64,000 bases of DNA from Calothrix sp. C42_A2020_038. GTDB lineage: Bacteria > Cyanobacteriota > Cyanobacteriia > Cyanobacteriales > Nostocaceae. This document shows, piece by piece, positions 4,062 to 17,572 of the stretch. The position numbers and the translations under genes are program-made. The stretch covers positions 186,001 to 250,000 of the forward strand of contig JACYLQ010000005.1 in assembly GCA_015272395.1 (NCBI GenBank), given 5' to 3'. Under the pieces are notes generated by a model that did no database searches, was not told where the DNA came from, and saw nothing but the letters and a program-made list of their open reading frames with translations. How positions within the stretch are numbered: position 1 is the stretch's first letter; every line of letters begins with the position of its first letter.

Positions 4062-4880
4062 TTACTTTGACAAAATTCTATGTGTAGGAATCCATATCCA
4101 TCCATGTAGTGGAATAAAAATTAACAATATACTACTGAAAGCAATCCATATAAAAATTTTACTTTGCTTATTGTTAAGATAATTAGATGCATCTAAAAAT
4201 TGTTTTCTGGTTTGTTGAATGTCTTTTAACTGATCTAACAATTCTTTTTGCTCAGGTATGGGGTGTGGTGGAATTTCTAGTTGAGATAACTTATCCGGTG
4301 GTGGGTCTTGATATCCTACTACACTTTTTGCAAAACCCAAAAAGCCCTTCGACTTTTTGACGGGAAAACTTTTTAATACTTTTGAATATACTTGATAATA
4401 ATCTATATTGACTTTCGCTAGCTGTTGTTCAACTAGTTCCTTTTGCTTCTCAACACCTATACTTTGATGAATATTGAAACCTATCGATATTGTGCATAAG
4501 ATGGATACGGCGCCTAATCCTGTACGTATTCGATGTATCTTTTTATCTTCCTGAGCAATTCTTCCTAACATGATATTGACTTTCGCTTTCAAAACTTCGC
4601 GCGTCAAATTGTGATAACTTGCGGTATTTTCTATCCACGAGTCAACAAGTTGTATGTATGGTTCGTATAATTCCGAAGCGTCAGCAAATTGCGCTATTGA
4701 TTTCGCATAGTGATAATCTTTAGCATACATTCTCAACTGTTGCAGAATACTGGCGCCAGAGCGTTGCAAGTTATAAGTGAAACTATCACCTACAGAATGC
4801 TGCCACAATTCCTTATCAACTCGCTCTAAAGCATAAAGGACTTTATCCGGGCTGCTATTATAGATTGACACCATAAGCAT
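4062..4880 (-). CDS. Hypothetical protein with two membrane segments
   Basis: A 272-residue protein of unrecognised family. Residues about 1-115 are helical and polar. There is one hydrophobic segment at about 124-140 (GAVSILCTISIGFNI) and a second near 245-263 (IFIWIAFSSILLIFIPLHG). Between them is a long charged region containing a Pro-rich stretch (PPPDKLSQLEIPPHPIPEQ) and probable coiled coil (KELLDQLKDIQQTRKQF). The layout suggests a two-pass membrane protein with a loop of roughly 100 residues. Translation could start at either of the first two Met codons (4880 or 4874). Its 5' end lies 33 bases from a ParE toxin remnant on the other strand, which suggests rearrangement at this spot. 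No function is proposed. Confidence 0.6.
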   Translation of the reverse strand: MLMVSIYNSSPDKVLYALERVDKELWQHSVGDSFTYNLQRSGASILQQLRMYAKDYHYAKSIAQFADASELYEPYIQLVDSWIENTASYHNLTREVLKAKVNIMLGRIAQEDKKIHRIRTGLGAVSILCTISIGFNIHQSIGVEKQKELVEQQLAKVNIDYYQVYSKVLKSFPVKKSKGFLGFAKSVVGYQDPPPDKLSQLEIPPHPIPEQKELLDQLKDIQQTRKQFLDASNYLNNKQSKIFIWIAFSSILLIFIPLHGWIWIPTHRILSK

Positions 4881-4913
4881 ACCAACGAAATCACTTCAAG
4901 TATTATCTCGCGT

Positions 4914-5066
4914 ATGCGTACCAAAATAGTCTCTAAGTTTGAAAATTATCTGAAAATATCTGTGGATGATTATTTGATTTTTTATCGTCAAATTGAAGAT
5001 GGAATTGAAATTACACGGTTTGTTAGTGGATATCGGGATTTAGATGCATTATTTGATGAAGACTAA
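4914..5066 (+). pseudogene. ParE/RelE-type toxin, C-terminal remnant
   Basis: A 50-codon frame starting at ATG 4914 and ending at TAA 5064-5066. It encodes ISVDDYLIFYRQIEDGIEIT followed by RFVSGYRDLDALFDED. This is the C-terminal signature of plasmid-stabilisation ParE toxins (VDDYLIFYR, then a basic core and GxRDLxxLF). The N-terminal half of the roughly 95-residue family is absent; in-frame sequence upstream does not resemble it. No antitoxin frame is seen. It is probably a decayed toxin-antitoxin locus cut at the 5' side, next to the divergent gene that begins at 4880. A short functional peptide is unlikely. Confidence 0.6.
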
Positions 5067-5284
5067 ATCATATCCCTGAAAACCGCGTGTATAAATACTT
5101 CATCACAATTTGCGACTGCATTGCTTGCTTCTAACCTTAGTCTGTTTACCGTTCCCAAATAAAAATATTGTAGGTAACTAAAAATAATTAATTAGTTATT
5201 TGATTTTTTCAAAAAATACTTAATTACTAATCCCAATTTTCAAAACTACTATTTAAATTATGAAATAACTCAAAGGAGAAATTT

Positions 5285-5536
5285 ATGTCTAATACTTCTA
5301 GTCACTTAATGAAAAAGAAAATCTTGTTGCCACTTGCTGCAATGATTATCGGTAGTTCTGCTATTTTTAGCTTTGCTAGCCAAGCTTTAGCTGGAGATGT
5401 TATCGCAGGGCCCATCTGGAACAATGAACACGCAAAAGAAAGATGTCCTCAAGTTTGTAGTTCAGTCGGGTTGAGATGGAATGGTAACTGGTACACATTC
5501 GACCCAGGCAAAAATTCGGTTTGTGGTTGTGACTAA
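5285..5536 (+). CDS. Secreted single-domain lectin-like protein (MVL / mannan-binding family), copy 1
   Basis: An 83-residue precursor. An AGGAG at 5274-5278 fits the start at 5285. A signal peptide (KKKILLPLAAMIIGSSAIF through SQALA) is followed by a mature part of about 46 residues beginning GDVIAGPIWNNEHAKERCPQ. The pattern AGPIWNN...GxxWNGNW matches one repeat of the Microcystis viridis lectin MVL, which reads AGPLWSN...FTGQW. MVL proteins bind oligomannose and usually carry two such repeats; here there is one. Unlike MVL, the mature part has four cysteines (C-P-Q-V-C and C-G-C), suggesting two disulfides. The next gene is a close duplicate, and a DsbA-like oxidoreductase lies 0.9 kb downstream on the same strand. 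Lectin family membership comes from motif recognition; sugar binding is inference. Confidence 0.7.
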   Translation: MSNTSSHLMKKKILLPLAAMIIGSSAIFSFASQALAGDVIAGPIWNNEHAKERCPQVCSSVGLRWNGNWYTFDPGKNSVCGCD

Positions 5537-5652
5537 AATCCTATAAATTTCATCTTTGGAAACAACTGTAATGCTCACTCATATGTTCTAAAGGTGACAA
5601 CACATAAAAATTCACACTGTTCAACGTAACTAATTTATTAAAGGAAAAAATC

Positions 5653-5892
5653 ATGTCTATGAAAAAGAAAATCTTGCTGCCACTTGGCGCCATGATTATC
5701 GGTGGTTCTGCTATTCTTGGCTTTGCTAACCAAGCTTTAGCTGGATGGGTTGTCGCAGGTCCTATCTGGAACAATGAACACGCAAAAGAAAGATGCCCTC
5801 AAGTTTGTAGTTCAGTTGGTTTGAAATGGACTGGTCACTGGTATACACACGACCCAGGCAAAAATTCAGTTTGTGATTGTGTAGGTCAGTAG
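5653..5892 (+). CDS. Secreted single-domain lectin-like protein (MVL / mannan-binding family), copy 2
   Basis: A 79-residue duplicate of the gene at 5285. The signal peptide is nearly identical (MKKKILLPLGAMIIGGSAIL ending in ANQALA). The mature part starts GWVVAGPIWNNEHAKERCPQ and keeps all four cysteines and the GLKWTGHW element. Differences cluster at the mature N-terminus (DVI to WVV) and at the C-terminus (CGCD to CDCVGQ). An AAAGGA motif lies 6 bases before the ATG. The 5' leader contains TTCACACTGTTC (5611-5622), of which TCACACTGTTC recurs before the third gene at 6038-6048, so the duplicated unit includes upstream DNA. The probable role is an extracellular or periplasmic sugar-binding protein, unproven. 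Confidence 0.7.
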   Translation: MSMKKKILLPLGAMIIGGSAILGFANQALAGWVVAGPIWNNEHAKERCPQVCSSVGLKWTGHWYTHDPGKNSVCDCVGQ

Positions 5893-5971
5893 AGTTTTAA
5901 CTCGAAAGTGTTTCAGTTACTCAACATCAGTAATATTTAGGTATTTTATAATACCTAATTTTCTCTGATAT

Positions 5972-6010
5972 ATCCAGGTTGACCGCCCACCAGAGCGGTT
6001 ATACCTGGAT
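5972..6010 (+). terminator. Hairpin terminator after the second lectin-like gene
   Basis: Arms ATCCAGGT (5972-5979) and ACCTGGAT (6003-6010) pair perfectly, continued by ACCGC/GCGGT across a small asymmetric bulge, with an 8-base loop. Downstream sequence is T/A rich. It probably ends transcription of the lectin genes, or attenuates it before the gene at 6079. Confidence 0.6.
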
Positions 6011-6078
6011 TTGTTAAAAAAATTATTTAAAAACAACTCACACTGTTCTATTTAATTCAAATCCTTAATGAGAAAGTT

Positions 6079-6339
6079 ATGTTAACAAACTGTAACAAAA
6101 AATTTAAAAATACACTTCTGCTGCGTTTTGGCTCACTTATTATTTTCGGTTCTGCTATTTTTGGCTTTTCTAATCAGGTATTTGCTGGAGAAGTTAATAT
6201 TAATCAAAATGTATGCTTCCAACCTAATAAACCGAATATAGATAGTCATAACAAATATGACACTTATATAAAACTAGGTTCAATGACTATCTTTATTCCT
6301 GAAACAATATTTGTTGACAATGACTATTGTACTCCCTAA
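6079..6339 (+). CDS. Small secreted protein with a lectin-type leader but a different mature part
   Basis: An 86-residue precursor. Residues about 10-37 (NTLLLRFGSLIIFGSAIFGF, then SNQVFAG) resemble the leader of the two preceding lectin-like genes, including the SAIFGF core and the FAG/LAG cleavage site. The mature part of about 50 residues (GEVNINQNVCFQPNKPNIDS...) has no AGPIWNN or GxW motif, only two cysteines, and a hydrophobic patch (SMTIFIPETIFV). I do not recognise the mature domain. The upstream DNA shares TCACACTGTTC with the copy before 5653. The gene therefore looks like a duplicate whose mature part was replaced or diverged beyond recognition. It ends 55 bases before the DsbA-like gene on the same strand. 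Confidence 0.6.
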   Translation: MLTNCNKKFKNTLLLRFGSLIIFGSAIFGFSNQVFAGEVNINQNVCFQPNKPNIDSHNKYDTYIKLGSMTIFIPETIFVDNDYCTP

Positions 6340-6393
6340 TCTTCAATATTTCACTATATACAATAGTTTCATTTTGTAATTAGGAGATTTATT

Positions 6394-7182
6394 ATGAACA
6401 AATTATTCAGTCGATACAATGTTTCTAGAAAGAGGGTACTTACAGCAGCGGGATTGCTGTTGTTGTGCTTAGGATTGAATAACTATTTAATGCCTACTGT
6501 TGCTGGAAATTCTCAATCAGTAGATTCACAATTAGAAGTCAAGATTTTGCAAGTCATTCGCAAGCATCCAGAAGTTGTTATGGAGTCCGTTAAGGCATAT
6601 CAACTGAAAAAACAGGAACAACAACAGAAAGCACAAATGGCTTTTTTGAAAAGAATGAAAGCTAACCCAAAATCTGTGATTGGCTTTTCTCCAACTACTG
6701 TTGCCCCTGAGCAAAAAATTGTATTGGTCAATTTCTCTGACTTTCAATGTCCTTATTGTGCAAAGGCACATAAAGTCCTCAAACAATTTATGACAAAATA
6801 TAAAGATAAAGTCACCTTGGTGTACAAACATTTTCCTTTGAACTCAACTCACCCAGAAGCAACACCCTCAGCCAAAGCTTCTTGGGCAGCACAGCAACAA
6901 GGAAAATTTTGGGAGTTCCATGATGCGCTGTTTGAAAACCAAGACAAGTTGAGTGAATCTTTTTATATTGCAACTGCCAAAGCTCTGAATTTAGATATAA
7001 AGCGGTTTAACCAGGATCGTAATAGTAGTGCTGCTACAGAGGCTATAAATAATGATATTGAATTGGCACAAGAGATTGGAGTCGATGCTACTCCTAGGTT
7101 AGCGATGAATGGAGAACCTGTGAACGGAGATATTCAAATTGATAATTTGGAGGCAATTCTGACCCAGATAAACAAACGGTGA
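6394..7182 (+). CDS. DsbA-family thiol-disulfide oxidoreductase, secreted or membrane-anchored
   Basis: A 262-residue protein with an N-terminal hydrophobic segment (VLTAAGLLLLCLGLNNYL, about residues 15-33) followed by a helical Gln-rich linker and a thioredoxin-fold DsbA domain from about residue 105. The active site is CPYC within FSDFQCPYCAKAHKV. The cis-Pro region is DATPRLAMNG near residue 233. The family oxidises or isomerises disulfides outside the cytoplasm. A good Shine-Dalgarno (TTAGGAGA) precedes the ATG at 6394. The three genes just upstream encode small secreted proteins with two or four cysteines each, so they are plausible clients; that link is inference from order and spacing. 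The 3' end faces the convergent CCA-adding gene across a shared hairpin. Confidence 0.85.
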   Translation: MNKLFSRYNVSRKRVLTAAGLLLLCLGLNNYLMPTVAGNSQSVDSQLEVKILQVIRKHPEVVMESVKAYQLKKQEQQQKAQMAFLKRMKANPKSVIGFSPTTVAPEQKIVLVNFSDFQCPYCAKAHKVLKQFMTKYKDKVTLVYKHFPLNSTHPEATPSAKASWAAQQQGKFWEFHDALFENQDKLSESFYIATAKALNLDIKRFNQDRNSSAATEAINNDIELAQEIGVDATPRLAMNGEPVNGDIQIDNLEAILTQINKR

Positions 7183-7204
7183 CGCATAAAATAATCAGAA
7201 TAAT

Positions 7205-7242
7205 CTGAACTACCCCACGGATAAATCCGGAAGGTAGTTCAG
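7205..7242. terminator. Bidirectional hairpin between convergent genes
   Basis: CTGAACTACC (7205-7214) and GGTAGTTCAG (7233-7242) form a perfect 10-bp stem around an 18-base loop. It sits in the 62-base gap between the DsbA-like gene (+) and the CCA-adding gene (-), so it can serve both. Confidence 0.7.
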
Positions 7243-7244
7243 TA

Positions 7245-8492
7245 CTACATATATCTCATCAAATGACGCGCGTATTCAATTGCATCGTCGCGCGTTAAAA
7301 CCTTGCCTTCAACTTGTGCAATCGCAATTTCGGTAAGAAGTCTACCAACCAGTGGCGAAGAGGGTATGTTTAGTGCTATAATGATTTCCTTCCCACTCAA
7401 CAAAGGAGTGGGATGAGCAACCGGATCATCAGGGTTAAGGTAGTGGGATATTATGGGTGCAATTCCCTCTACCAAGATATCATGAGCAATTGCCATAACG
7501 CATGTCGCAGGGAATACAATTCCTGCTTCTTGGAACAAAAAATATTGTTCGCGTAAAGACATTTGCTGTTTTTGTAGTTGAGTATAAAGTCTTAGAACAG
7601 TAATAACAGATTTGATTTCAGCGCGACTGTAGGTCAGTGCATTCAATTCTGCTTCCGCCGTTTCTAAATCAGAACTCACCATACATGCGAGTTTAGCAAT
7701 ACCGAGCCAAGTAGTCTTGATGGTATTGCGCACACGCTCATTTAATTGTACTCCAAGTTGATGCCATTTTTCCGACAATTTACTTGCTGCATCATCAATT
7801 TTTATAAGGCACCTACATCCAGCGTCAGTGATATTTTTGAAGAAAGGTGTCAGTAGTTTATCCTCTACTGCCTTAACTATCCAAGGTGTACCTTGAGAAT
7901 TTACTAACATGTAACCAAGCTCGGTACGTACTCTTTCTGCGGAAATTCGACTCAACTGTGGCGCCAGTGTACGAATAGTGTAGAGAGTATGATTTTCAAT
8001 CTCAAATTGTAATTGTGCAGCTTGTCGATATCCCCGTAGTAACCGTAAGGGGTCATCTTCAAGGTTTTGCTGTGATATCATGCGTAGAGTACGGGCGTTT
8101 AAGTCAGCGTAACCTTGGAGTGGGTCAATAATTTCTTGTGAGTAAGGGTTGAATGCAATCGCGTTAACAGTAAAATCGCGTCGGCGCAAATCGGTTTCTA
8201 AATTATCTCCTTCTTGCTGGGCAATATCTACAGTAACTTTCGGAAATACTATCCTTGCAATTTGCCTTTCTCTGTCAAGAAGTACAAACCCAGCTTTATA
8301 ATGTGCGGCGATTTTTCTGGCAGTGCTAACCGCGTTCTCTGGCAAAATAAAATCTAAATCTAAATACTCGCGCTTTCTTCCTAATATCGCATCCCGCACG
8401 GCGCCACCAACAAGATAAACAGGTTGTGGCAAAAAATCCAAACTAAAAGGATAATTTTCAGGTGATAAAGAAGATACGGCCAAGTTTTGCAT
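7245..8492 (-). CDS. cca: CCA tRNA nucleotidyltransferase / poly(A) polymerase family
   Basis: A 415-residue class II nucleotidyltransferase that adds C and/or A to tRNA 3' ends. N-terminal motif LVGGAVRDAILGR (about residues 27-39) is followed by the metal-binding YLDLDFIL (D-x-D), then RRDFTVNAIAFNPY and the RNA-binding DDPLRLLRGYR. The C-terminal half is helical, as expected. Some cyanobacteria split the activity between a CC-adding and an A-adding enzyme, and motif reading alone cannot say which type this is. The start MQNLAVSSL is the only upstream Met. The gene is monocistronic as far as can be seen. Confidence 0.88.
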   Translation of the reverse strand: MQNLAVSSLSPENYPFSLDFLPQPVYLVGGAVRDAILGRKREYLDLDFILPENAVSTARKIAAHYKAGFVLLDRERQIARIVFPKVTVDIAQQEGDNLETDLRRRDFTVNAIAFNPYSQEIIDPLQGYADLNARTLRMISQQNLEDDPLRLLRGYRQAAQLQFEIENHTLYTIRTLAPQLSRISAERVRTELGYMLVNSQGTPWIVKAVEDKLLTPFFKNITDAGCRCLIKIDDAASKLSEKWHQLGVQLNERVRNTIKTTWLGIAKLACMVSSDLETAEAELNALTYSRAEIKSVITVLRLYTQLQKQQMSLREQYFLFQEAGIVFPATCVMAIAHDILVEGIAPIISHYLNPDDPVAHPTPLLSGKEIIIALNIPSSPLVGRLLTEIAIAQVEGKVLTRDDAIEYARHLMRYM

Positions 8493-8611
8493 TATTACTT
8501 ACATTTCCATATTCATTCATACATCTTAATAAAAATAAGTCAAAAGTTTAGGTCAATAACTGTTTCGCTTAAGTTAGATTAACAATACAAGGTTATGGAG
8601 TTGATTCTCTT

Positions 8612-8860
8612 ATGTGTGTTTGTGTCAACTGCCACTATGTAGACCGCTGCTTGACCTACCATGCGGTAGAAACGCAGCACGAACAGCCTCATTTGACCGA
8701 AACACCCGATTTCGAGCCGAATGAACCATCTATCAATGTTAACATCCGTCCCCGTGAGGATGTAATTGAAATGGAATGGGACGTAGTTGGCTGTCTTAGC
8801 TTTAAAGAAGAGAAGGGCAAATGGTCTAAGTTACGTCCAGGTGAACTAGTACCCACTTAA
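8612..8860 (+). CDS. ycf34: Ycf34 family protein
   Basis: An 82-residue protein beginning MCVCVNCHYVDRCLTYH, with the conserved C-x-C-x2-C-x5-C cluster, then QPHLTETPDFEPNEPSINVN and the C-terminal EMEWDVVGCLSF ending WSKLRPGELVPT. These match Ycf34, conserved in cyanobacteria and algal plastids. Published work on the Synechocystis protein describes Fe-S cluster binding and a link to photosynthetic electron transport. The length is normal for the family. It stands alone, with a terminator hairpin just after its stop. Confidence 0.9.
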   Translation: MCVCVNCHYVDRCLTYHAVETQHEQPHLTETPDFEPNEPSINVNIRPREDVIEMEWDVVGCLSFKEEKGKWSKLRPGELVPT

Positions 8861-8888
8861 CAATTTCAAAAATGTTTTGTCATCAATG

Positions 8889-8916
8889 CGACTACTGGTA
8901 CCCAAAACAGTAGTCG
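8889..8916. terminator. Bidirectional hairpin after ycf34
   Basis: CGACTACTG (8889-8897) pairs with CAGTAGTCG (8908-8916) around a 10-base loop, followed by TAATCTTTT. It lies between the convergent ycf34 and HugZ-like genes. Confidence 0.7.
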
Positions 8917-8923
8917 TAATCTT

Positions 8924-9427
8924 TTAATCTATTTCTTCCTCGTCAGTAACTTGAGTTAAAACATCAAGGTCGGATGCAGAAACATTATATGCGGCGCCAA
9001 ATCCAATTACAAACTTACCTTTATTGGGTTTGAGTTGAAAAATTCGGAAATCAGGTAAGTCACGGAATGTTTTAATTATCTCACCAAAGCGTTCTTCATA
9101 TCTTTGTAGTACTTCGTTCCATAACTCAGTATCACGCTCTACCAAAGCAGCACTACAATCATAGGTTAATCGGCGCCGTGCGAAGATTTGTTGACTTTGC
9201 AACTCATCTTCAATAAACATTACACTAGCTAAAGGTGCCGTATAGAGATTTTGTGTGTGAGTTGAAAGTCCGCTGACGTAGATATAAATATTCTTACTTT
9301 CATCAATAACAAACGGTGTATAGCTAACGTTAGGTATACCATTTTTGCTAACAGTACCCAGCATTAAACTTTGAAACTCCGAAACAAAAACTCGATAAGC
9401 AGCAGTAGCAACTTCGATTTGTGACAT
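8924..9427 (-). CDS. HugZ/HutZ-like haem-degradation family (pyridoxamine-phosphate-oxidase fold)
   Basis: A 167-residue split-barrel protein. It starts MSQIEVATAAYRVFVSEFQS and carries GTVSKNGIPNVSYTPFVID, then SGLSTHTQNL, IFARRRLTYDC and a terminal VIGFGAAYNVSASDL. The block FGAAY close to the C-terminus and the ARRRLT element are typical of HugZ/HutZ proteins, which cleave haem to release iron. The last 40 residues contain no histidine, whereas characterised HutZ/HugZ proteins use a C-terminal His as haem ligand, so the haem chemistry may differ. The divergent neighbour is a siderophore/haem-type ABC ATPase, which supports an iron role. Confidence 0.7.
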   Translation of the reverse strand: MSQIEVATAAYRVFVSEFQSLMLGTVSKNGIPNVSYTPFVIDESKNIYIYVSGLSTHTQNLYTAPLASVMFIEDELQSQQIFARRRLTYDCSAALVERDTELWNEVLQRYEERFGEIIKTFRDLPDFRIFQLKPNKGKFVIGFGAAYNVSASDLDVLTQVTDEEEID

Positions 9428-9530
9428 AGGGAAACTTATTTATCGTGCTAAGGTAATGTTTACACTCACATACACATATAATAAATTAGCACGAATTATA
9501 GTTTATACTTGTTTTTCCAACTACCAATTT

Positions 9531-9546
9531 TACGTAATATTACGTA
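9531..9546. promoter_or_regulatory. Perfect 16-bp palindrome in a divergent promoter region
   Basis: TACGTAATATTACGTA is a perfect palindrome between the divergent HugZ-like and FecE-like genes, 128 bases before the ATPase start. Its place and symmetry suit a dimeric repressor or activator. It does not look like a standard Fur box. A second inverted repeat (CGTGCTAA at 9444-9451, TTAGCACG at 9486-9493) lies in the leader of the HugZ-like gene. Confidence 0.45.
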
Positions 9547-9673
9547 TTAAAATTTTCGTTAATATTTTCTTTATAAATGTATACGTAGGGTACGACCTAA
9601 ACATCAAAAATTAAATATAATAATTGCAAATATTTCGCTATAATTAACAAAATCGAGAATAAAAAATTGTTAC

Positions 9674-10468
9674 ATGAAAGCACTATCAACCAAAAGTCTC
9701 GCATTAGCATACGATGGAAACACAATTATCCGTGATCTAAATTTAGCGATACCTGGGGGAAAAATTACAGCGTTAGTTGGTGCAAATGGTTGTGGTAAAT
9801 CTACTTTACTGCGAGGACTCGCGCGTTTATTGAAGCCGCAAACAGGTGCAGTTTACCTTGATAGTGCTGCGATGAATAAGCTTTCGACAAAAGACATAGC
9901 TAAACAATTGGGGATTTTAACACAGGCGCCGATAGCACCTGAAGGATTAACAGTTCATGACTTAGTAGCACAGGGTCGTTATCCTTATCAAAGCTGGTTA
10001 CAGCAATGGTCGCAAAAAGATGAGCAAATGGTAGAAATAGCATTGGCAACAACCGACTTAACTGAAATGGCAGACCGTGCGCTCGAAACTTTATCTGGTG
10101 GACAACGACAACGTGCTTGGATAGCAATGGCGTTAGCACAGGATACAGATATATTACTACTTGATGAACCAACTACATATTTAGATTTAGCCCACCAAAT
10201 CGAAGTATTAGATTTACTCCTAGACTTAAATCGCGCTCAGGGACGTACCATTGTGATGGTACTGCATGATTTAAACCAAGCATGTCGCTATGCAGATTAT
10301 TTAGTTGCAGTTAGTGATGGAAGAGTCTATACAGCAGGGGAGCCAAACTCAGTAATGACCCAAGAAATGGTGCGTGACGTATTTGGTTTAGAATGTCGTA
10401 TCATTCCCGACCCAGTAGTAGGGACACCAATGTGCGTACCAATAGGAAAAAGAGGTAGAAACAATTAA
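9674..10468 (+). CDS. Iron-siderophore/haem-type ABC transporter ATP-binding protein
   Basis: A 264-residue ATPase of the FecE/FepC/FhuC group. Walker A is [11 protein letters not shown] (about residue 36), the Q-loop region is [16 protein letters not shown], the signature is [18 protein letters not shown], and Walker B is [20 protein letters not shown]. The H-loop is [15 protein letters not shown]. The TTYLDLAHQ wording is characteristic of ferric-siderophore and haem importers. The usual permease and substrate-binding genes are not adjacent: the next gene is an RCCR homologue. The ATPase must therefore serve a permease encoded elsewhere. It is divergent from the HugZ-like gene, with a palindrome between them. 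Confidence 0.85.
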
Positions 10469-10573
10469 GCTAACCCAAAATCAATAGCTGTATTTAACCA
10501 GCTTGGAATTTACTGTCAGTTATCTTTAAAACACTTAGATGTATACTTGACTATATATTTACGTAAAAGCTAT

Positions 10574-11299
10574 ATGTCTTGGTTTGAAGAATTTTGGGGC
10601 ATCACTGAAAATCTTAAAAAGCAACTAGATGCTCATTTTAGTCTGAATCTAGAGTCATCCACACATGATTTAGCAAACTTTAGCAGTAATGATGGTAACT
10701 GCAATGGTTCGCTGACTGCCTACACCGGAAATCAAGTTGAACGGCTAGTACATGGATACATAAGAAAGTCACAGTCACCAAGTTATAGTACAATGCGTCT
10801 AACCACTTGGTTAAAACCACATATTGATGTTCCCCACTTAGCTTTTGAATTTGGTACCAGGCAACATTTTTTATTTTATATAGACTATATCCCGCGCGGA
10901 GATTTAATGACTGATTTAGATTATATCCAAAAATACTACGAGCCAGTTAACGCCACATATCTAAAGTTGAGAGACGAGCCTAACCTAACCAAATTTATTA
11001 GTACCAGCCCTTACATCCGTTCATTGCAATCACCCATAAGTTTATGCTATGTTTGCGCTCCTAACGTAGATAGTTTGGAAATGATTCGTGGAGTTGCAAA
11101 AGAAATGCTCGAACGCTGGTTAAAATGGGTAGACAACGCACAAATACTACCAGAAAAGACTCAACCTCAGTTAGCCGCGCGTGATTTTTCCATTCGTCGC
11201 TCCAGTGCCGAACTCGACCCAGGTAATAAATTCGCTGTACAAATGCTTGGTAGTGAAATGACAGATAAACTTGTTCGCACACTTTGGGGTGGTGCATAA
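10574..11299 (+). CDS. Red chlorophyll catabolite reductase (RCCR) family protein
   Basis: A 241-residue homologue of plant RCCR (ACD2), a ferredoxin-dependent bilin reductase in chlorophyll breakdown. Supporting blocks are FEFGTRQHFLFYIDYIPRGD, LMTDLDYIQKYYEP, STSPYIRSLQSPISLCYVC and the C-terminal AARDFSIRRSSAELDPG with FAVQMLGSEMTDKLVRTLWG. These parallel plant RCCR blocks as I recall them (DYLKEYY, SP..FVRSAFSP, RRDKSFRRKSIE). MSWFEEFWGI at 10574 is chosen as the start because it begins the conserved part; a start at 10547 would add nine residues. Its cyanobacterial substrate is not known to me. It could reduce another linear tetrapyrrole. It follows a haem/iron pair, which keeps to a tetrapyrrole theme. 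Confidence 0.75.
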   Translation: MSWFEEFWGITENLKKQLDAHFSLNLESSTHDLANFSSNDGNCNGSLTAYTGNQVERLVHGYIRKSQSPSYSTMRLTTWLKPHIDVPHLAFEFGTRQHFLFYIDYIPRGDLMTDLDYIQKYYEPVNATYLKLRDEPNLTKFISTSPYIRSLQSPISLCYVCAPNVDSLEMIRGVAKEMLERWLKWVDNAQILPEKTQPQLAARDFSIRRSSAELDPGNKFAVQMLGSEMTDKLVRTLWGGA

Positions 11300-11661
11300 A
11301 TTTAACAAAATTCGGAACGCCGAAACTAGCGGTTTTAAGTAGCTAGACCTTGTTTATAAAAAATTACCCACCCGTTACATCCGCTACATCGGTTGCTCCC
11401 CCAACCTATCAAAACTTATTACATAGTCCACTAGAAGTACTAATATAACTTGTTTCACTGTCAGAAAACTGCATAAGCTTCTCTCTTCCTGAAATATATT
11501 TATAACAGACTCTCTAAAAGGGTGTCACAGGCAAAATTGCAATTCTGATGAGGAGGTGGAAAAATTGATAGTAATTAGCGTTGAGTAAAATCACTGTGGT
11601 CGTCATATCTAAATATTGCGAATTTGTCAAACTTTCTAGTAACGGTAGGCGCCTGGTTGAA

Positions 11662-13002
11662 ATGATTATCGCTGCTAAAGACTATTTACAACAACAGTTT
11701 CCTAGACTCGCTGATGTGACGGATGCAGAAATACAGCGTCAACTTTGGCAACAAATGCGGGTACAAGCTGCTAGTAGCATTGCTGAAATTTGTTTACGCT
11801 GTTATGTCTCGAACCAAATCTATCAGGTTTGTTTCGACTTAGGCGCCAAATTCGGTAGGCAAAATGGGTTTACTTATCAAGAACTACTACCACTGGTGTT
11901 GGCAGATGAAGTTTTGCTTACAACACAAACAGGAAAAGCTAGTTCTTACGAGTCTTTAGCGACAACGATATTAAAAACATACAATCCAGATAAAGGTTCC
12001 CTCAACACTTGGATCAGTCGCTATGTTAAACAACATCCTGATATCAAGCGATTTCTACTCCAACATGGCGTTTTTCTAGTTAGCGATTGGGCACTTTTGA
12101 ATGATACAAATCCTAAAGAATTAGGACGAATTTTGACACAAATGTATCGTTTACCCGCGTTGGAAATAAGTTGTGCTTGTGAGCTATTGGTTAGCTACCA
12201 TGCAGTATACCGTTCAGACCGTTTACAACAGCGTCTTAAAGGTTCAACTTTACCATGTCAGGCGCCGACAGATGAGCAACTATCTCGTATTGGTCAAGAC
12301 TTACAAGCGAGAACAAGTAAAAGTCTGAGTAACGACACAATTTTAATGCGATTGCAGTCAATAGGAGCTAAATTGCGACGATATCGAATAGCTGCTCAAG
12401 GTGGTGCAATTAAAACACTACGTTATGATCAACCGGAAATTCAACCAATGGTTGAGCGTGAAGCCACAACATTAGATAACCAAGATCAAGAAGAAAACGA
12501 ATTTATTAAAATATACCAGCAACAGTTGGTAGAATCTTTAGACCAAAGTCTTTCTGAGGTTATAGAAGAGTTTATCAACAAAATGCAACGTCGGCGCCCG
12601 TCCAATGTCGAAGCATTGCTCAAGGGTTTGAAATTATTTCACTGTCGAGGAGAGTCTATGACTCAAATTGCACCACAAATTGGTTTAACAAAACAGTATG
12701 AAGTAACTAGGTTATTAAAATTAAACGAATTACGTGCTGATGTTCGACAGCGATTGTTAAATATTTTGCGTACCAAAGTTATTGATATTGCCAAACAATT
12801 TACCAATATCGAACAATTACACCTGTTAGACCAAAAAATTGAGGAGGCATTACAAGAACAAATTACCAAAATTATCGAGCAAGCAGAGTCTGAAGGCCGA
12901 AACCCTGTTCGCAATCAACCCCTGCGTAGTCTCTTCGCACATCGTCTTTGTCTTTATTTGGATCAAAGAGCAAATCCATTCCCAATTTCTAACTTTCCAT
13001 GA
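11662..13002 (+). CDS. Sigma-70-like factor of the DUF1822/CHAT-CHASE2 locus
   Basis: About 446 residues from ATG 11662; a longer form could begin at TTG 11581, and neither start has a clear Shine-Dalgarno. Residues 94-140 (SYESLATTILKTYNPDKGSL, NTWISRYVKQHPDIKRFL) resemble a sigma region 2 core as seen in ECF-like cyanobacterial factors. Near residue 330-358, GESMTQIAPQIGLTKQYEV followed by TRLLKLNELR looks like a region-4 helix-turn-helix. The remainder is helical and Gln-rich. The stop codon TGA overlaps the next start (ATGA), so expression with the DUF1822 gene is coupled. The expected job is to recruit RNA polymerase to a small regulon, with activity set by downstream partners. The sigma assignment is motif-based and moderate; an atypical transcription factor is the alternative. 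Confidence 0.6.
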   Translation: MIIAAKDYLQQQFPRLADVTDAEIQRQLWQQMRVQAASSIAEICLRCYVSNQIYQVCFDLGAKFGRQNGFTYQELLPLVLADEVLLTTQTGKASSYESLATTILKTYNPDKGSLNTWISRYVKQHPDIKRFLLQHGVFLVSDWALLNDTNPKELGRILTQMYRLPALEISCACELLVSYHAVYRSDRLQQRLKGSTLPCQAPTDEQLSRIGQDLQARTSKSLSNDTILMRLQSIGAKLRRYRIAAQGGAIKTLRYDQPEIQPMVEREATTLDNQDQEENEFIKIYQQQLVESLDQSLSEVIEEFINKMQRRRPSNVEALLKGLKLFHCRGESMTQIAPQIGLTKQYEVTRLLKLNELRADVRQRLLNILRTKVIDIAKQFTNIEQLHLLDQKIEEALQEQITKIIEQAESEGRNPVRNQPLRSLFAHRLCLYLDQRANPFPISNFP

Positions 13003-14246
13003 ATCAAAACACTCCCCTTTCCGAATACCTTGACTGGCAATCTCTTGGTAATACTAGCGTGCAGTTGGCGCCGGAACAAATTCGTCGTGCAGCACAGTTG
13101 AGTTTATCGATTACTTATCCTCAACAATGTTGGCATGTTTACCGTTGTGCTTTAGGTGTGATTGGCTTTGAACAATGGCTATCAGAACGGTCACCGGATT
13201 TACAAGTTCAAGTTAACCAGTCTTCGATTTGGCAACCTGCTTACGCAAATTTACTATCTGCGGCTTCTAATATCCAAGTTGGCGCCTTTAAAATTTGTAT
13301 AATTACTGCGAGCCAAGTAGGAGACTTACACAGTATTCCTCTGGCTGTATTAGATGTTGCAAGTTTGACAGCGCATTTTTATGTACTGATGCAGGTTGAG
13401 GAAGAACTACAGCAAGTCAGTGTATTTGGGTTTACTAGCTATGGGGAGTTACAGTCGCAGCGAAATAAGTTGCAAGTTGAAGAATGGAATTACTGTTTAC
13501 CAACAAACAAGTTGAACTTTGACCCAGATGCACTCTTACTAAATTTACGTTGCCTGGATACCAGTGCAATTGAGTTACCTGTTTCAACTGTTCAAACTGA
13601 TTTAACCACAAACCTACAGCAAAAGCTAGCTAATTTACAATCAGGTTTCAAGCAGCATCCTGCACAGTTTTTAACATTGCCAGAAGTAAGAGTACTGTTT
13701 AGTAACTCTGATTTCATTAATAGGTTATATGCACTCACGCACGTTCAACCCCAACCATTAGTCAATATTGGTCTTTGGCTACGTAATCAAATTGATACCG
13801 TTGCCTCTGAGTTAGGGTGGATGTTAATGCCAACCCTAGCTCCGTCTGCAATGCGAAATTTTGATGATTTTAAACGAATACGAGACGGATTGGAAGCACG
13901 CAAAATATATATTCCCTCAACCGCACGAGGCGCCTCGCGTGAATTAAAATCAGAATGTGGCGGTGTTAAACTTTATGCAATTGTATGGAAGCTAGATGAA
14001 AATCCAAACCCAGAATGGATGATGTTAATAACATTGGGTTGTATCGCTGATATACCAATGCCAAAAACATTGAGGTTACAAGTTCGCGACCAAACACAAG
14101 AATTATTTAACCAGTATCAAGAAGACACAACCAATGGGATACTTTATGCAAAGGTGATTGGTGATAGTAATGACCGTTTTTGGATTACAGTAACTGCTGA
14201 TGATACTGCTGTCTTTGAGCTTCCACCTTTTGGTATGGGAAGTTAG
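12999..14246 (+). CDS. DUF1822 family protein
   Basis: A 415-residue cyanobacterial protein starting MNQNTPLSEYLDWQSLGNTS. It has the features I associate with DUF1822: a start VQLAPEQIRRAAQLS, then QQCWHVYRCALGVIGFEQWL, then SNIQVGAFKICIITASQVGD, and a C-terminal LGWMLMPTLAPSAMR. There is no signal peptide or membrane segment, so it is probably cytoplasmic. Function is unknown. It overlaps the sigma-like gene by four bases and is followed, after 193 bases, by the CHAT-CHASE2 gene. Because it is coupled to the sigma-like gene, it may be an anti-sigma factor, adaptor or protease target; that is inference from gene order. Confidence 0.7.
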   Translation: MNQNTPLSEYLDWQSLGNTSVQLAPEQIRRAAQLSLSITYPQQCWHVYRCALGVIGFEQWLSERSPDLQVQVNQSSIWQPAYANLLSAASNIQVGAFKICIITASQVGDLHSIPLAVLDVASLTAHFYVLMQVEEELQQVSVFGFTSYGELQSQRNKLQVEEWNYCLPTNKLNFDPDALLLNLRCLDTSAIELPVSTVQTDLTTNLQQKLANLQSGFKQHPAQFLTLPEVRVLFSNSDFINRLYALTHVQPQPLVNIGLWLRNQIDTVASELGWMLMPTLAPSAMRNFDDFKRIRDGLEARKIYIPSTARGASRELKSECGGVKLYAIVWKLDENPNPEWMMLITLGCIADIPMPKTLRLQVRDQTQELFNQYQEDTTNGILYAKVIGDSNDRFWITVTADDTAVFELPPFGMGS

Positions 14247-14365
14247 ATACATTAAATATTGCTTTTTGTCAAAAAAATTAAAGTAAAATTTAAACTTATT
14301 TAAGACAACAGTAAGTAAAAATACAACATGCAACTAAATATTGAGGTGCTGTTAACTAAACAGCA

Positions 14366-14383
14366 GGACTGACGTAAGTGGCA
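14366..14383. repeat. Solo copy of a dispersed repeat end (GACTTACGTAAGTGGCA family)
   Basis: The sequence GGACTGACGTAAGTGGCA matches, with one change, the right terminus of the element at 52296-52397 and the copy at 39293. No partner end is evident nearby. Confidence 0.4.
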
Positions 14384-14439
14384 TATAAAAATCTAAATTG
14401 TATTTTTATATCTATCCCTCATCCGTATTCAATCTAGCT

Positions 14440-16833
14440 ATGACTTCATCACACTTATTTCATCTCAAAGTTCAAAAGGTAGAACAAACATGTTTGTTCG
14501 AGTTGTCCTGGGGCCAAGGGCAACGGTTAACTGCACAAGTTAGTTATCCAATTGCTTTGTCGGAGCTATACCAAGACTGGAAAAAGGCATATCTTAACTT
14601 TTACCAGTCAGATGAAATGCGAGGAAGAGTTATAGATGGTGGTATTGCGGAACTAACTATTGACTGGCACGCAGAACTCGTTAAAGCTGAAACAAAGTTA
14701 ATGTATGAGTTTAATAGTTGGTTACGAAGTGCTGAGTTATATGATCTACGCGCGCGCATCGGTCAACCTGTCAGCGGTTCTCAAAATCAGCAAATAGTAA
14801 CAGTGTTCTTGACATGTGCGCCAATTGAACTAGATAGATTTCCGTGGGAAGCTTGGGAAAGCGAATTTAATAGTGCTGGAACAATACAAATTATTCGCTC
14901 TCCTCTTCATATTAGTAGCCCACATCAAGGGCAACCACAGGGACGTACTCGAATTTTAACAATATTAGGTGATAACACAGGCTTAGATTTTCAAGAAGAG
15001 AAAACTGCGATTAGAGAGTTATCGAAGGTAGCAGATGTACAATTTGTTGGGTGGCAGCCAAATAAAACTGCTTCTCAGGTTATTGAAGAAATTACAACAG
15101 CAATAGCTGATGAACGAGGATGGGACTTACTGTTCTTTGCTGGACATAGCGATGAAACAGACTTAACGGGGGGAGAGTTAGGTATTGCTCCAGGAGTTTC
15201 GATATCAATTAGTGAAATTGCAACTTTATTGAGTAGCGCGCGCGAGCGTCGGTTAAAAGTCGCTATATTTAATTCATGCAGTGGGTTAAATATAGCTGAA
15301 TCTTTAATTGACTTAGGGTTTAGTCAAGTAATGGTTATGCGTGAACCAGTACATAACCGTGTTGCACAAGAATTTTTAGTTAAGTTTTTGCAAGGCTTGG
15401 GTAAATATTTGGATATATATGAATCAATGATGGAAGCGCGGCAATTTCTGCGGTTAGAGAAAAGCCATACTTATCCTTCATCTTACTTGTTGCCTTCGTT
15501 GTTCTGTCATCCAGGCGCCAAGTTGTACAAAATTCCTTCTTTACAACCTTGGCATGTCCGTTTACGGCAAGTTGTACTACCCAATAGTTTAGTGGAAGCT
15601 GCTGCTTTAGTGGCAACTATAGCTGTAAGTACGATGCTTCCAGTTCAGGATTTTTTACTTGATGGCAGAATCTTCTCGCAAGCAGTGTACCGTAATCTTA
15701 CGAGTCAAATACCTAATCATGAGGCGCCACCAGTTGCATTAGTAGAAATTGATACTGAATCAATCACAAAGCGGAAGTTACCTGCTTCTCAGATTTTACC
15801 GATGAACCGCAGCTATATTGCAGAGTTAATGGAACATGTGCGAAAGTTAAATGCACCTGTCATTAGCTTGGATTTTTTGATTGATACACCACAAAAATAT
15901 CCTCCACAAGCAGATAAAGATTTGGGAACAGCGGTGAGTCGCGCGGTCAGTGAAGATAAGTGGGTTATTTTTGGTACCGTTTTACATGATGGTGAGGAAG
16001 CGAGTGTTAATGACGCGAATGGAATTCGTAACCGAAACTGGACTTTGCAAGGTTACACCGAGTCATACCCTTACCATGTTGAGTTACCTGCTTCAGACTG
16101 TCGTCAAACATGTCCTATGCCTTATTTGATAGCACTTACTCAGCTGGCAACGCAGGAAATCACTGATTTACCCAAACCTAAAACTAGTGGTAAAATTAAT
16201 TTACGAAAGCAGTTACTTGATGCTATTGAGCAAAACTTGCCCCTCAAAGGTAACTTAACCGCTTTAAAAAATTGGCGCCCGTTGTTGGGACAACAACCGA
16301 TAATTGATTTTTCTATACCTCCCCACCAGGTATACACTAAAATATCAGCCTGGAAGTTGATGGATAATCCAGATGCTAACAAGTTTCCTCTTGTATCCAA
16401 ACAAGCAGTATTAATTGCGACAGGAAATGATGAACGTTTAGGGAAAGCACCAGGTGAACCAGACCGAATGCCAATTCCCACAGCAATGAAATATTGGACA
16501 GGACAGTCATGGATGACAGGAGGTCAATCTTTATCTTATACCACACACCATTTTATCCGGCGCCATTTAATTACCCCAATACCTGATATTTGGTTGGTTA
16601 TAGTTGCCGTTCTTATCAGTAAAATTATGGTATATACTCTCAAATCTAAGTCGCCGTTAAAACCACAAATCCGTCTACAAATACTGTCAGGTGTCTTAAT
16701 CAGTGTTGTTTTATATGGAATAGTAGCACTGCAAGTATATGTATCTGCGGCATTATTACTTCCTTGGTTTTTACCATCATCGGTGTTTCTAGCTTATATA
16801 TTATCTGCAACAAGGAAACAAAACTATGCTTAA
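14440..16833 (+). CDS. CHAT caspase-like protease fused to a CHASE2 sensor domain
   Basis: A 797-residue protein from ATG 14440 (MTSSHLFHLK). The frame extends back to TTG 14398, but that lacks conserved sequence. Residues 1-160 form an N-terminal domain. Residues about 160-375 are a CHAT peptidase domain with His236 in LLFFAGHSDETDL and Cys280 in FNSCSGLNIAES, the expected catalytic dyad of clan-CD cysteine proteases. A membrane segment lies at about 392-412 (VEAAALVATIAVSTMLPV), then an extracytoplasmic CHASE2 domain at about 415-690 (VALVEIDTESITKRKLPAS, APVISLDFLIDTP). Three C-terminal membrane segments follow. CHASE2 normally senses signals for kinases or cyclases; here the output is a protease. 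It overlaps the next gene by 8 bases and lies downstream of the sigma-like and DUF1822 genes. Confidence 0.8.
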   Translation: MTSSHLFHLKVQKVEQTCLFELSWGQGQRLTAQVSYPIALSELYQDWKKAYLNFYQSDEMRGRVIDGGIAELTIDWHAELVKAETKLMYEFNSWLRSAELYDLRARIGQPVSGSQNQQIVTVFLTCAPIELDRFPWEAWESEFNSAGTIQIIRSPLHISSPHQGQPQGRTRILTILGDNTGLDFQEEKTAIRELSKVADVQFVGWQPNKTASQVIEEITTAIADERGWDLLFFAGHSDETDLTGGELGIAPGVSISISEIATLLSSARERRLKVAIFNSCSGLNIAESLIDLGFSQVMVMREPVHNRVAQEFLVKFLQGLGKYLDIYESMMEARQFLRLEKSHTYPSSYLLPSLFCHPGAKLYKIPSLQPWHVRLRQVVLPNSLVEAAALVATIAVSTMLPVQDFLLDGRIFSQAVYRNLTSQIPNHEAPPVALVEIDTESITKRKLPASQILPMNRSYIAELMEHVRKLNAPVISLDFLIDTPQKYPPQADKDLGTAVSRAVSEDKWVIFGTVLHDGEEASVNDANGIRNRNWTLQGYTESYPYHVELPASDCRQTCPMPYLIALTQLATQEITDLPKPKTSGKINLRKQLLDAIEQNLPLKGNLTALKNWRPLLGQQPIIDFSIPPHQVYTKISAWKLMDNPDANKFPLVSKQAVLIATGNDERLGKAPGEPDRMPIPTAMKYWTGQSWMTGGQSLSYTTHHFIRRHLITPIPDIWLVIVAVLISKIMVYTLKSKSPLKPQIRLQILSGVLISVVLYGIVALQVYVSAALLLPWFLPSSVFLAYILSATRKQNYA

Positions 16834-17572
16834 ACTAAAAATACTCAATTACCAAAAATCACTATTAAGCTTAACACTTCTTTTAGTAACTACATGTCTT
16901 GTCGCTACAGATAGTTTTACTAACCTAAAATCAACTCAAACGTTTGCCCAAGCGAGAGTTGCAGATTTCTTTTCGTTGTGGCAACGGAGTAAAGAACGAA
17001 GAATAGCTAGAATTTCTCGTAACACAAGCATTTGTGCCATCACACCTGGTGTATTAGAAACATATGTAGTTTGGCACAACCGTCCAATATTTATATGGAA
17101 ATCATTTAACAATCAAGAAGTGCAACTAATTTTACGTGAATATGAGAGCCAAGTTGAAGTGTGGAAACAACCAATTAATCCAAGAGAACAAAAGCTTGTG
17201 TATACCGGAGAAAAAGCACTCGAGGCCGGTAAACTTTACCAGTGGCAATTAGTTAATAAATCGCGCGTTATTAATGAATCAGTTACATTTCAAATTATGC
17301 CAGAAGCAGAGCGCGCTAAAATTCACAATGACTTAGTTGCATTAGAGCAAAACTCAAAACTCGTAAAATCCTCACCTGAAGAAATAGCTCTGAAAAAAGC
17401 TAACTATTTTCTTGCATATGAAGTTAAAACGCAAAATAACACTAAGAAGCATGTAGCTTGGTCTGATGCATTACAGTCGCTTTACGAAGTTAAAAATCCC
17501 TCCCCTGCTTTTATCGAACAACGTGAGAAATTTGTGACTTCGTTTTGTCAAGCTAATTCTACGATCAACTGA
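16826..17572 (+). CDS. Secreted protein closing the CHAT-CHASE2 operon
   Basis: A 248-residue protein with a signal peptide or anchor (SLLSLTLLLVTTCLVAT, about residues 12-28). After a basic stretch (LWQRSKERRIARISRN) comes SICAITPGVLETYVVWHNRP, then FIWKSFNNQEVQLILREYE, then VYTGEKALEAGKLYQWQLV: a beta-rich domain where a Cys sits early and another in the C-terminal FCQAN. A helical tail follows. The layout recalls DUF928 proteins, which accompany CHASE2/CHAT genes in cyanobacteria, but I cannot confirm the motif. It starts inside the CHAT-CHASE2 gene (8-base overlap), so translation is coupled. It may sit outside the membrane and present a signal to the CHASE2 domain; this is inference. Confidence 0.6.
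   Translation: MLKLKILNYQKSLLSLTLLLVTTCLVATDSFTNLKSTQTFAQARVADFFSLWQRSKERRIARISRNTSICAITPGVLETYVVWHNRPIFIWKSFNNQEVQLILREYESQVEVWKQPINPREQKLVYTGEKALEAGKLYQWQLVNKSRVINESVTFQIMPEAERAKIHNDLVALEQNSKLVKSSPEEIALKKANYFLAYEVKTQNNTKKHVAWSDALQSLYEVKNPSPAFIEQREKFVTSFCQANSTIN

Follow-up and report, generated by a model that had tools for sequence, protein, structure and literature searches.

The locus described here is a four-gene cassette in a 64,000-nucleotide stretch of Calothrix sp. C42_A2020_038 (contig JACYLQ010000005.1, positions 186,001 to 250,000 of the forward strand; the whole stretch is called the window below), and it encodes a sigma-like protein, a DUF1822 protein, a membrane protein joining a caspase-like CHAT domain to CHASE2, and an exported protein. 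Its closest described counterparts are the EACC2-caspase systems, described in 2021 by Kaur et al. In that eLife paper, represented here, like the other works cited, by excerpts of its text (PMC8195603), EACC2-caspase proteins with CHASE2 tails stand beside extracytoplasmic function (ECF) sigma and DUF1822 genes, and a transcriptional output by an autopeptidase plus sigma factor was proposed. In Type III-E CRISPR systems, the Csx29 protease cuts Csx30, an inhibitor of CASP-sigma (PMC10028731). Cyanobacterial metacaspases with a caspase-like domain fused to CHASE2 were reported in 2010 (PMC2853523). HetF of Anabaena, which gave CHAT the H of its name (PMC8999054), can cleave the negative regulator PatU3, affecting a developmental programme (PMC12288457). 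CHAT genes also occur around ECF54 sigma genes, for which proteolytic control without an anti-sigma factor was proposed (PMC8999054).

The cassette shows the traits of an EACC2-caspase system, namely a caspase-like domain after an N-terminal module, a variable tail of the CHASE2 type, and neighbouring sigma and DUF1822 genes. We read it by analogy as a transmembrane, protease-gated sigma-factor pathway of the EACC2-caspase/ECF sigma/DUF1822 kind, with a probability of roughly 0.42. An earlier note, made from the letters of this DNA alone, had suggested that an outside signal, perhaps relayed by the secreted protein, turns on proteolysis that frees or destroys the sigma-like factor, with DUF1822 as anti-sigma factor or substrate. 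The logic of that model agrees with the proposal in PMC8195603 and with the tested analogue Csx29-Csx30-CASP-sigma, and the interpretation as a whole is partly supported by the following results.

Layout and conservation of the four-gene locus

Reading of the open reading frames (ORFs) detected four consecutive genes on the + strand at 11581-17572 of the window, in the order that the earlier note had given, and the coupled locus is confirmed as observed.

Gene 1, 11581..13002, + strand: diverged sigma-70-superfamily protein, start at TTG 11581 or GTG 11596 (ORF, family consensus, hhalign)
Gene 2, 12999..14246, + strand: DUF1822 protein of 415 residues, probably cytoplasmic (Pfam E 7.7e-48)
Gene 3, 14440..16833, + strand: 797-residue protein with an N-terminal module, CHAT (H236, C280), a predicted transmembrane helix, CHASE2 and three predicted C-terminal transmembrane helices (Pfam CHAT 8.9e-9, CHASE2 2.1e-13; dyad alignment; hydropathy)
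Gene 4, 16826..17572, + strand: exported protein of 248 residues, remote DUF928 relative and probable periplasmic partner of CHASE2 (DUF928 relatives and profiles, N-terminal stretch, DUF928-CHASE2 pairing)

Both of the overlaps noticed previously are real: genes 1 and 2 share ATGA (gene 1 stop at 13000-13002, gene 2 ATG at 12999) and genes 3 and 4 share 8 bases (16826-16833). Genes 2 and 3 do not overlap, with 193 bases between the stop at 14246 and the ATG at 14440.

The earlier note had proposed a check of gene order across cyanobacteria, and this was made on 85 loci, consisting of 80 regions (66 genomes, 12 families, 37 genera), four named loci and the window. The gene-1 matches listed numbered well over 100, with more beyond the listing, and the 80 regions were mostly the strongest; six named loci were found, of which L010 (on a 3.3 kb contig) and L014 (a fragment) were left out, and the named gene-1 relatives belong to Nostoc, Rhizonema, Scytonema and a Nostocales strain. 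Genes in each locus were assigned by local profiles that had been built up starting from the window proteins, and since the loci were picked by gene-1 similarity, the counts are not population frequencies. The full order was kept in 46 of the 85 loci, the window included, which places it far from chance; genes 1-2-3 were found in 16 loci and in one more with a split gene 3, genes 1-2 in 15, and gene 1 alone in 7, so that gene 2 followed gene 1 in 78. Leaving aside the named loci and the window, 41 full loci remain, drawn from 36 genomes, 25 genera and 7 families. Among the 46 full loci, genes 3/4 overlapped in 39, genes 1/2 in 28 and genes 2/3 in 15, counts that may be somewhat overstated as ORFs were taken from the first possible start codon. 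The pairwise distances of the four genes were correlated at 0.72-0.85, compared with a highest permuted value of 0.26, in a set of 48 loci gathered by a looser rule tolerating inserted genes; shared species history contributes to this correlation. Of 291 genomes sampled from the class, 96 had a gene-1 relative. A plasmid search returned 41 records with gene-3 relatives, 34 of them in the ten cyanobacterial genera tallied and 11 of the 41 typed as conjugative.

Gene 3 is a predicted membrane-anchored CHAT protease

The CHAT match, joined to CHASE2 in one protein as the earlier note had it, starts at about residue 104 of the protein read from ATG 14440, and the His236/Cys280 dyad lies exactly at the positions previously given when numbered from this ATG. 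The dyad was invariant in 62/62 aligned CHAT-CHASE2 orthologues (alignment A3, comprising 62 of the 67 gene-3 ORFs longer than 700 residues after L054, L117, L118, L123 and L124 were dropped). It was also kept in 9/9 further proteins, namely six host paralogues and the separately inspected L117, L118 and L123, with L054 and L124 outside the dyad counts. The CHAT domain of gene 3 is, on this alignment, a predicted protease with its catalytic dyad. Conserved columns precede CHAT in the 62 orthologues and form a constant N-terminal module, for which EACC2 is a candidate identity on the basis of architecture; the Pfam and NCBIfam scans turned up no EACC2 model.

A crude hydropathy scan placed one transmembrane helix at 378-396 and three at 716-788. 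No helix was predicted within the first 340 residues in 58/62 orthologues, the helix before CHASE2 reached the threshold in 36/62, and at least one helix followed residue 600 in 62/62. The simplest predicted topology has CHAT inside and CHASE2 outside. Against the PDB, the gene-3 profile had weak matches to a small helical protein, regarded as chance, and none to a caspase or CHAT structure at E<=1. The fusion had been called an unusual output for a CHASE2 protein, but it has precedents in PMC2853523 and PMC8195603, and CHAT-CHASE2 is encoded at three more places in the host genome, in one case truncated by a contig end.

Gene 1 is a distant relative of sigma factors

Gene 1 encodes 473 residues from TTG 11581, or 446-473 depending on the start. 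The N-terminal family consensus SRYWxLVRL, which appears as SKYCEFVKL in the window, is encoded in frame upstream of 11662, and named relatives align from residue 1-5 of the longer reading. As this conserved N-terminus lies upstream, the ATG at 11662, previously taken as the start, is probably too late.

A paralogous cassette of the host genome, L136, is ordered sigma-DUF1822-CHAT/CHASE2-DUF928. Its first protein, P0005, matched Sigma70_r4 (8.2e-7) and, below the cut-off, region 2 (3.6e-4). Alignment of the gene-1 family (85 rows) with the P0005 family by hhalign gave P 2.5e-28 over nearly the full length, whereas four control comparisons of unrelated profiles gave 0.058-0.53, and the aligned stretches included region-2-like and region-4-like helix-turn-helix segments. 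This alignment with a family carrying Pfam sigma regions indicates that gene 1 is a member of the sigma superfamily by descent, albeit a distant one, with putative sigma activity. The sigma-like label of the earlier note is thus upheld by remote homology, but not by a sigma-model match of the protein's own. Sigma70_r4 was matched by 2/85 gene-1 members, at best with 0.008, and neither gene 1 nor gene 4 had a Pfam family above the cut-off. The AlphaFold2 model of gene 1 was all helical (pLDDT 90.1, pTM 0.62) and had long helices outside regions 2 and 4.

In the comparison of the gene-1 profile with PDB sequences, the top row, DMAP6 (E 0.0014), was judged to be chance, and the next rows, the helix-turn-helix of a deoxyribonucleoside regulator (0.056) and sigma F (0.23), are suggestive only. 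Chain F of the Thermus thermophilus polymerase, the sigma subunit, appeared in two entries among 50 of 97 rows for the gene-1 model (E 1.7 and 7.0), and was not counted as evidence. Two other host loci, L139 and L141, have shorter first genes of 241 and 223 residues beside DUF1822 and CHAT proteins without CHASE2; the first protein of L141 (223 residues) matched Sigma70_r2 at E 7e-5, below the cut-off.

Gene 2 and the DUF1822 fold

The AlphaFold2 model of gene 2 (pLDDT 90.8) begins with an alpha/beta part, continues through helices in the middle and ends in an immunoglobulin-like beta sandwich. The sole Foldseek match at E<=0.001 was an ApaG domain (4.6e-4, TM-score 0.38 of the target). The crude hydropathy scan flagged residues 113-131, a segment that sits inside the folded alpha/beta part of the model; a scan of the same kind over a longer span of residues flagged 3/85 gene-1 and 10/53 gene-2 proteins, the latter from alignment A4, which holds 53 of 81 DUF1822 ORFs. 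No TPR family was matched by gene 2 at E<=1 in Pfam, and no TPR protein was among the 50 Foldseek rows shown. The label of DUF1822 as a TPR protein in PMC8195603 is therefore not supported for the window member, as judged from its model. Csx30 was also absent from the same 50 of 879 Foldseek rows. The role of DUF1822 as anti-sigma factor or substrate is a guess.

Gene 4 and the pairing of DUF928 with CHASE2

The fourth protein had been described as secreted, and the hydropathy scan agrees, with an N-terminal hydrophobic stretch in gene 4 and in all 54/54 family members. The window protein itself had no match to Pfam DUF928 (PF06051) at E<=1, while 22/54 family members did. When ten relatives were scanned singly, eight matched DUF928 (E 3.7e-6 to 2.8e-3), only L073 being above the curated cut-off. 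For a stricter comparison, 21 members, the window's included, were chosen as having no match in the local DUF928 hidden Markov model (HMM), and hhalign aligned them with DUF928 at P 2.2e-8 against 0.059-0.66 for six controls. This supersedes a comparison (P 4.4e-8) using 40 members unrecognised (E<=0.1) by a 7-sequence DUF928 HMM, some of which Pfam matches weakly. The kinship of gene 4 with DUF928, as a remote profile-level relationship, held in this re-test. The gene-4 profile gave only weak rows against the PDB, several of them fibronectin, and these were set aside.

The relationship of DUF928 with CHASE2 was followed in 12 genomes, which, like the 23 genomes used for CHAT clustering below, were selected among gene-1 carriers. 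A CHASE2 match lay within 3 kb of 73/102 DUF928 matches, where 1.4 were expected under uniform placement. Among the 150 CHASE2 matches listed, 71 had DUF928 nearby; the counts cover 102 of 103 DUF928 matches (the second piece of one frame was omitted) and 150 of 162 CHASE2 matches. In the host genome, 5/5 DUF928 matches stood beside CHASE2. The rule has exceptions, as 29/102 DUF928 matches had no CHASE2 match within 5 kb. The pairing was independent of the output, since the CHASE2 protein beside DUF928 in locus L138 (host C24) has histidine kinase and receiver domains. Conversely, no gene-4 relative was detected beside any of the six CHAT proteins lacking CHASE2 that were examined (L117, L118, L123, L139, L140 and L141). 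The pairing across outputs, together with this absence, indicates that gene 4 goes with CHASE2. Its remote DUF928 kinship and the proximity of DUF928 to CHASE2 suggest that gene 4 is probably a periplasmic partner of CHASE2. The family link to CHASE2 is strong, and the signal relay that the earlier note suggested for the protein is conjectural. L138 itself forms a row at 6012-14203 of a two-partner-secretion (TPS) protein, a TPR-CHAT protein with a signal-peptide-like start, DUF928, and the CHASE2-histidine kinase-receiver protein.

Neighbouring TPR-CHAT and TPS genes

Of the 85 loci, 34 contained CHAT ORFs outside the gene-3 family, 59 in all, and 14 contained TPS-domain ORFs, 19 in all, with local TPS and CHAT profiles partly built from the same loci. 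Pfam scans identified 8/8 of the neighbouring CHAT proteins examined as TPR-CHAT proteins and matched 4/4 TPS proteins to PF05860; one further neighbour was a caspase-DUF4384 protein. The 150 CHAT matches listed for the 23 genomes (the strongest of 601) included 26, of another kind than gene 3, that were located within 10 kb of one of 36 gene-1 places, compared with 0.74 expected, and at least one such match accompanied 16/36 places. TPS matches numbered 203 in about 146 Mb of these genomes, or roughly 1.4 per Mb, versus 19 in 1.5 Mb of loci, although these densities compare different profiles and some ORFs are partial. Every part of the module occurs in one host locus, L135 (C8), where at 4482-14321 a TPS exoprotein, CHAT-CHASE2 and DUF928 are encoded on one strand, diverging from a sigma (P0006)-DUF1822 pair.

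Upstream sequences were searched for shared words. The strongest words for gene 1 turned out to be conserved coding sequence (TATTGGCA, corresponding to YW codons), and those for gene 3 were assumed to be coding too. Upstream of TPS/CHAT genes the best signals were weak, being a dyad at P 1.1e-5 among 102,732 and an 8-mer at P 1.4e-6 among 15,049. The 8-mers CGGTAATG (7/70 upstream stretches vs 1/546 controls) and GCGGTAAT (6/70 vs 0/546) were mildly enriched, at about 0.02-0.03 after correction for the 15,049 words.

Other features of the window

Directly upstream of the cassette, 10547-11299 (+) encodes a red chlorophyll catabolite reductase-like protein (PF06405, E 1.2e-21), of a family best known from plants. 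On the - strand, 54834-60302 encodes a protein of 1822 residues combining Ser/Thr kinase, AAA_16, GAF and histidine kinase domains. An Rfam scan of the window gave no family at gathering scores.

A proposed mechanism and its alternatives

In the pathway that we propose, CHASE2 and its exported DUF928-like periplasmic partner would sense a condition outside the inner membrane, and the signal would cross via the transmembrane helix to the cytoplasmic CHAT protease. CHAT would then cut DUF1822, which would otherwise keep the sigma-like protein inactive, on the model of Csx29 cutting Csx30 and relieving CASP-sigma. The freed sigma-like protein would redirect RNA polymerase, and its most plausible targets would be the genes for exported TPR-CHAT and TPS proteins that often adjoin the cassette. 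The results above bear out that the module and the dyad are conserved, that sigma homology and a DUF928-CHASE2 pairing exist and that CHAT genes cluster, and they predict the topology; cleavage of DUF1822, its role as the substrate, the activity of the sigma-like protein and the regulon are what we infer. The step from protease to sigma is borrowed from Csx29 (PMC10028731) and agrees with PMC8195603, ECF54 (PMC8999054) and HetF-PatU3 (PMC12288457).

Several results weigh against this pathway. The protease is not always adjacent, as seven of the 85 loci hold gene 1 alone and 15 only genes 1 and 2. No TPR-CHAT or TPS gene of the kind described was found in the first 30 kb of the window, and 20/36 gene-1 places had no listed CHAT match within 10 kb. 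No promoter motif common to the neighbouring TPS/CHAT genes survived multiple testing, and without a convincing shared motif their regulation by the cassette is only inferred. The window's gene-1 protein had no sigma match at E<=1 in Pfam or NCBIfam, and Foldseek of its model against the PDB returned nothing at E<=0.001. Neither Csx30, which has a solved structure, nor any anti-sigma factor was among the PDB sequence matches of the DUF1822 profile at E<=5.

A cell-death or counter-invader system, in which the triggered caspase-like domain would cleave a wide range of host proteins, or itself, and halt growth, the sigma arm being secondary, is an unlikely reading. PMC8195603 put EACC2-caspase genes in just this context, and Pfam finds nSTAND1 in the tails of two variants of the CHAT protein, alone in L117 and together with WD40 repeats in L123, as in conflict systems. 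However, the pairing of CHASE2 with DUF928 suggests envelope sensing, TPS and TPR-CHAT proteins of exported type occur among the neighbours, and PADLOC had no match at E<=0.1 for genes 2-4, with one weak match for gene 1 (PD-T4-6, E 0.0016). PADLOC gave no support for filing the cassette as anti-phage.

We consider it just as improbable that the sigma-like protein is itself the CHAT substrate, destroyed or trimmed into an active form, with DUF1822 as a presenting adaptor and no anti-sigma factor involved. The precedent proposed for ECF54, with CHAT in its context (PMC8999054), speaks for such an arrangement, as does the constancy of the gene 1-gene 2 pair (78/85, the most constant), which would suit an adaptor and its client. 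In the biochemically studied CHAT-sigma case, however, it is the inhibitor that gets cut (PMC10028731). Less probable still is that gene 1 has ceased to work as a sigma factor and serves as a sigma-derived adaptor without promoter recognition. The missing sigma signature and Foldseek match mentioned above, the length of 446-473 residues and the long helices beyond regions 2 and 4 would fit this explanation; against it stands the conserved region-4-like helix-turn-helix segment, which can be aligned with a family that has a member keeping Pfam region 4 and, more weakly, region 2. Chance adjacency of unrelated genes is negligible, as its only foothold is the 193 bases that separate genes 2 and 3 here, against an order kept in 46/85 loci, 41 of which are distributed over 36 genomes and 7 families.

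The protease-gated sigma pathway can be extended to a broader proposal, rather doubtful at present, in which CHASE2 and exported DUF928 would form a general two-part envelope sensor of cyanobacteria, here driving a membrane-anchored, Csx29-like CHAT/DUF1822/sigma switch that turns on an exported TPR-CHAT/TPS arsenal. If the protease-gated pathway holds, a caspase-like protease would serve cyanobacteria in controlling genes from the envelope, beyond cell death, and a biochemical principle from one CRISPR subtype would be common, given the distribution of gene-1 relatives (96/291 genomes). The DUF928-CHASE2 pairing also offers a functional handle on an uncharacterised exported family.

Comparison with known systems

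The literature search, which did not cover most subscription journals, found no paper joining CHASE2 with "CHAT domain", and none joining filamentous hemagglutinin, "CHAT domain" and cyanobacteria. Within the same limits, the CHASE2-DUF928 pairing and the TPR-CHAT clustering do not appear in the excerpts of PMC8195603 or of the other works cited.

HetF-PatU3 resembles the proposed pathway as a cyanobacterial protease cutting a negative regulator, but differs in that it is not a sigma system and that no CHASE2 is mentioned in the excerpts (PMC12288457). The proteins of PMC2853523, classed there as metacaspases, share the caspase-like domain and CHASE2 with gene 3, so that this fusion was already noted in 2010, whereas no sigma or DUF1822 context is given in the excerpted text. 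The Csx29-Csx30-CASP-sigma system (PMC10028731) likewise encodes a CHAT protease and a sigma factor together. Its third gene is a sigma inhibitor cut by the protease, a role only proposed by analogy for the DUF1822 protein of the cassette, whose profile did not have Csx30 among its PDB matches at E<=5; and its trigger is RNA-guided, in contrast to the CHASE2 membrane sensor here. The EACC2-caspase systems (PMC8195603) are the most similar, with a constant N-terminal module, a caspase-like domain, a variable tail including CHASE2, and neighbouring sigma and DUF1822 genes, and the sigma/DUF1822/EACC2-caspase-CHASE2 core is therefore already in print and not new. They differ in that DUF1822 is called a TPR protein there, for which the gene 2 model gives no support, and in that an exported fourth gene, present in the cassette, and TPS/TPR-CHAT neighbours, found at related loci, are not mentioned in the excerpts. 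The additions made here to that core are gene 4 as a remote relative of DUF928, the pairing of CHASE2 with DUF928, and the clustering of TPR-CHAT genes beside gene 1.

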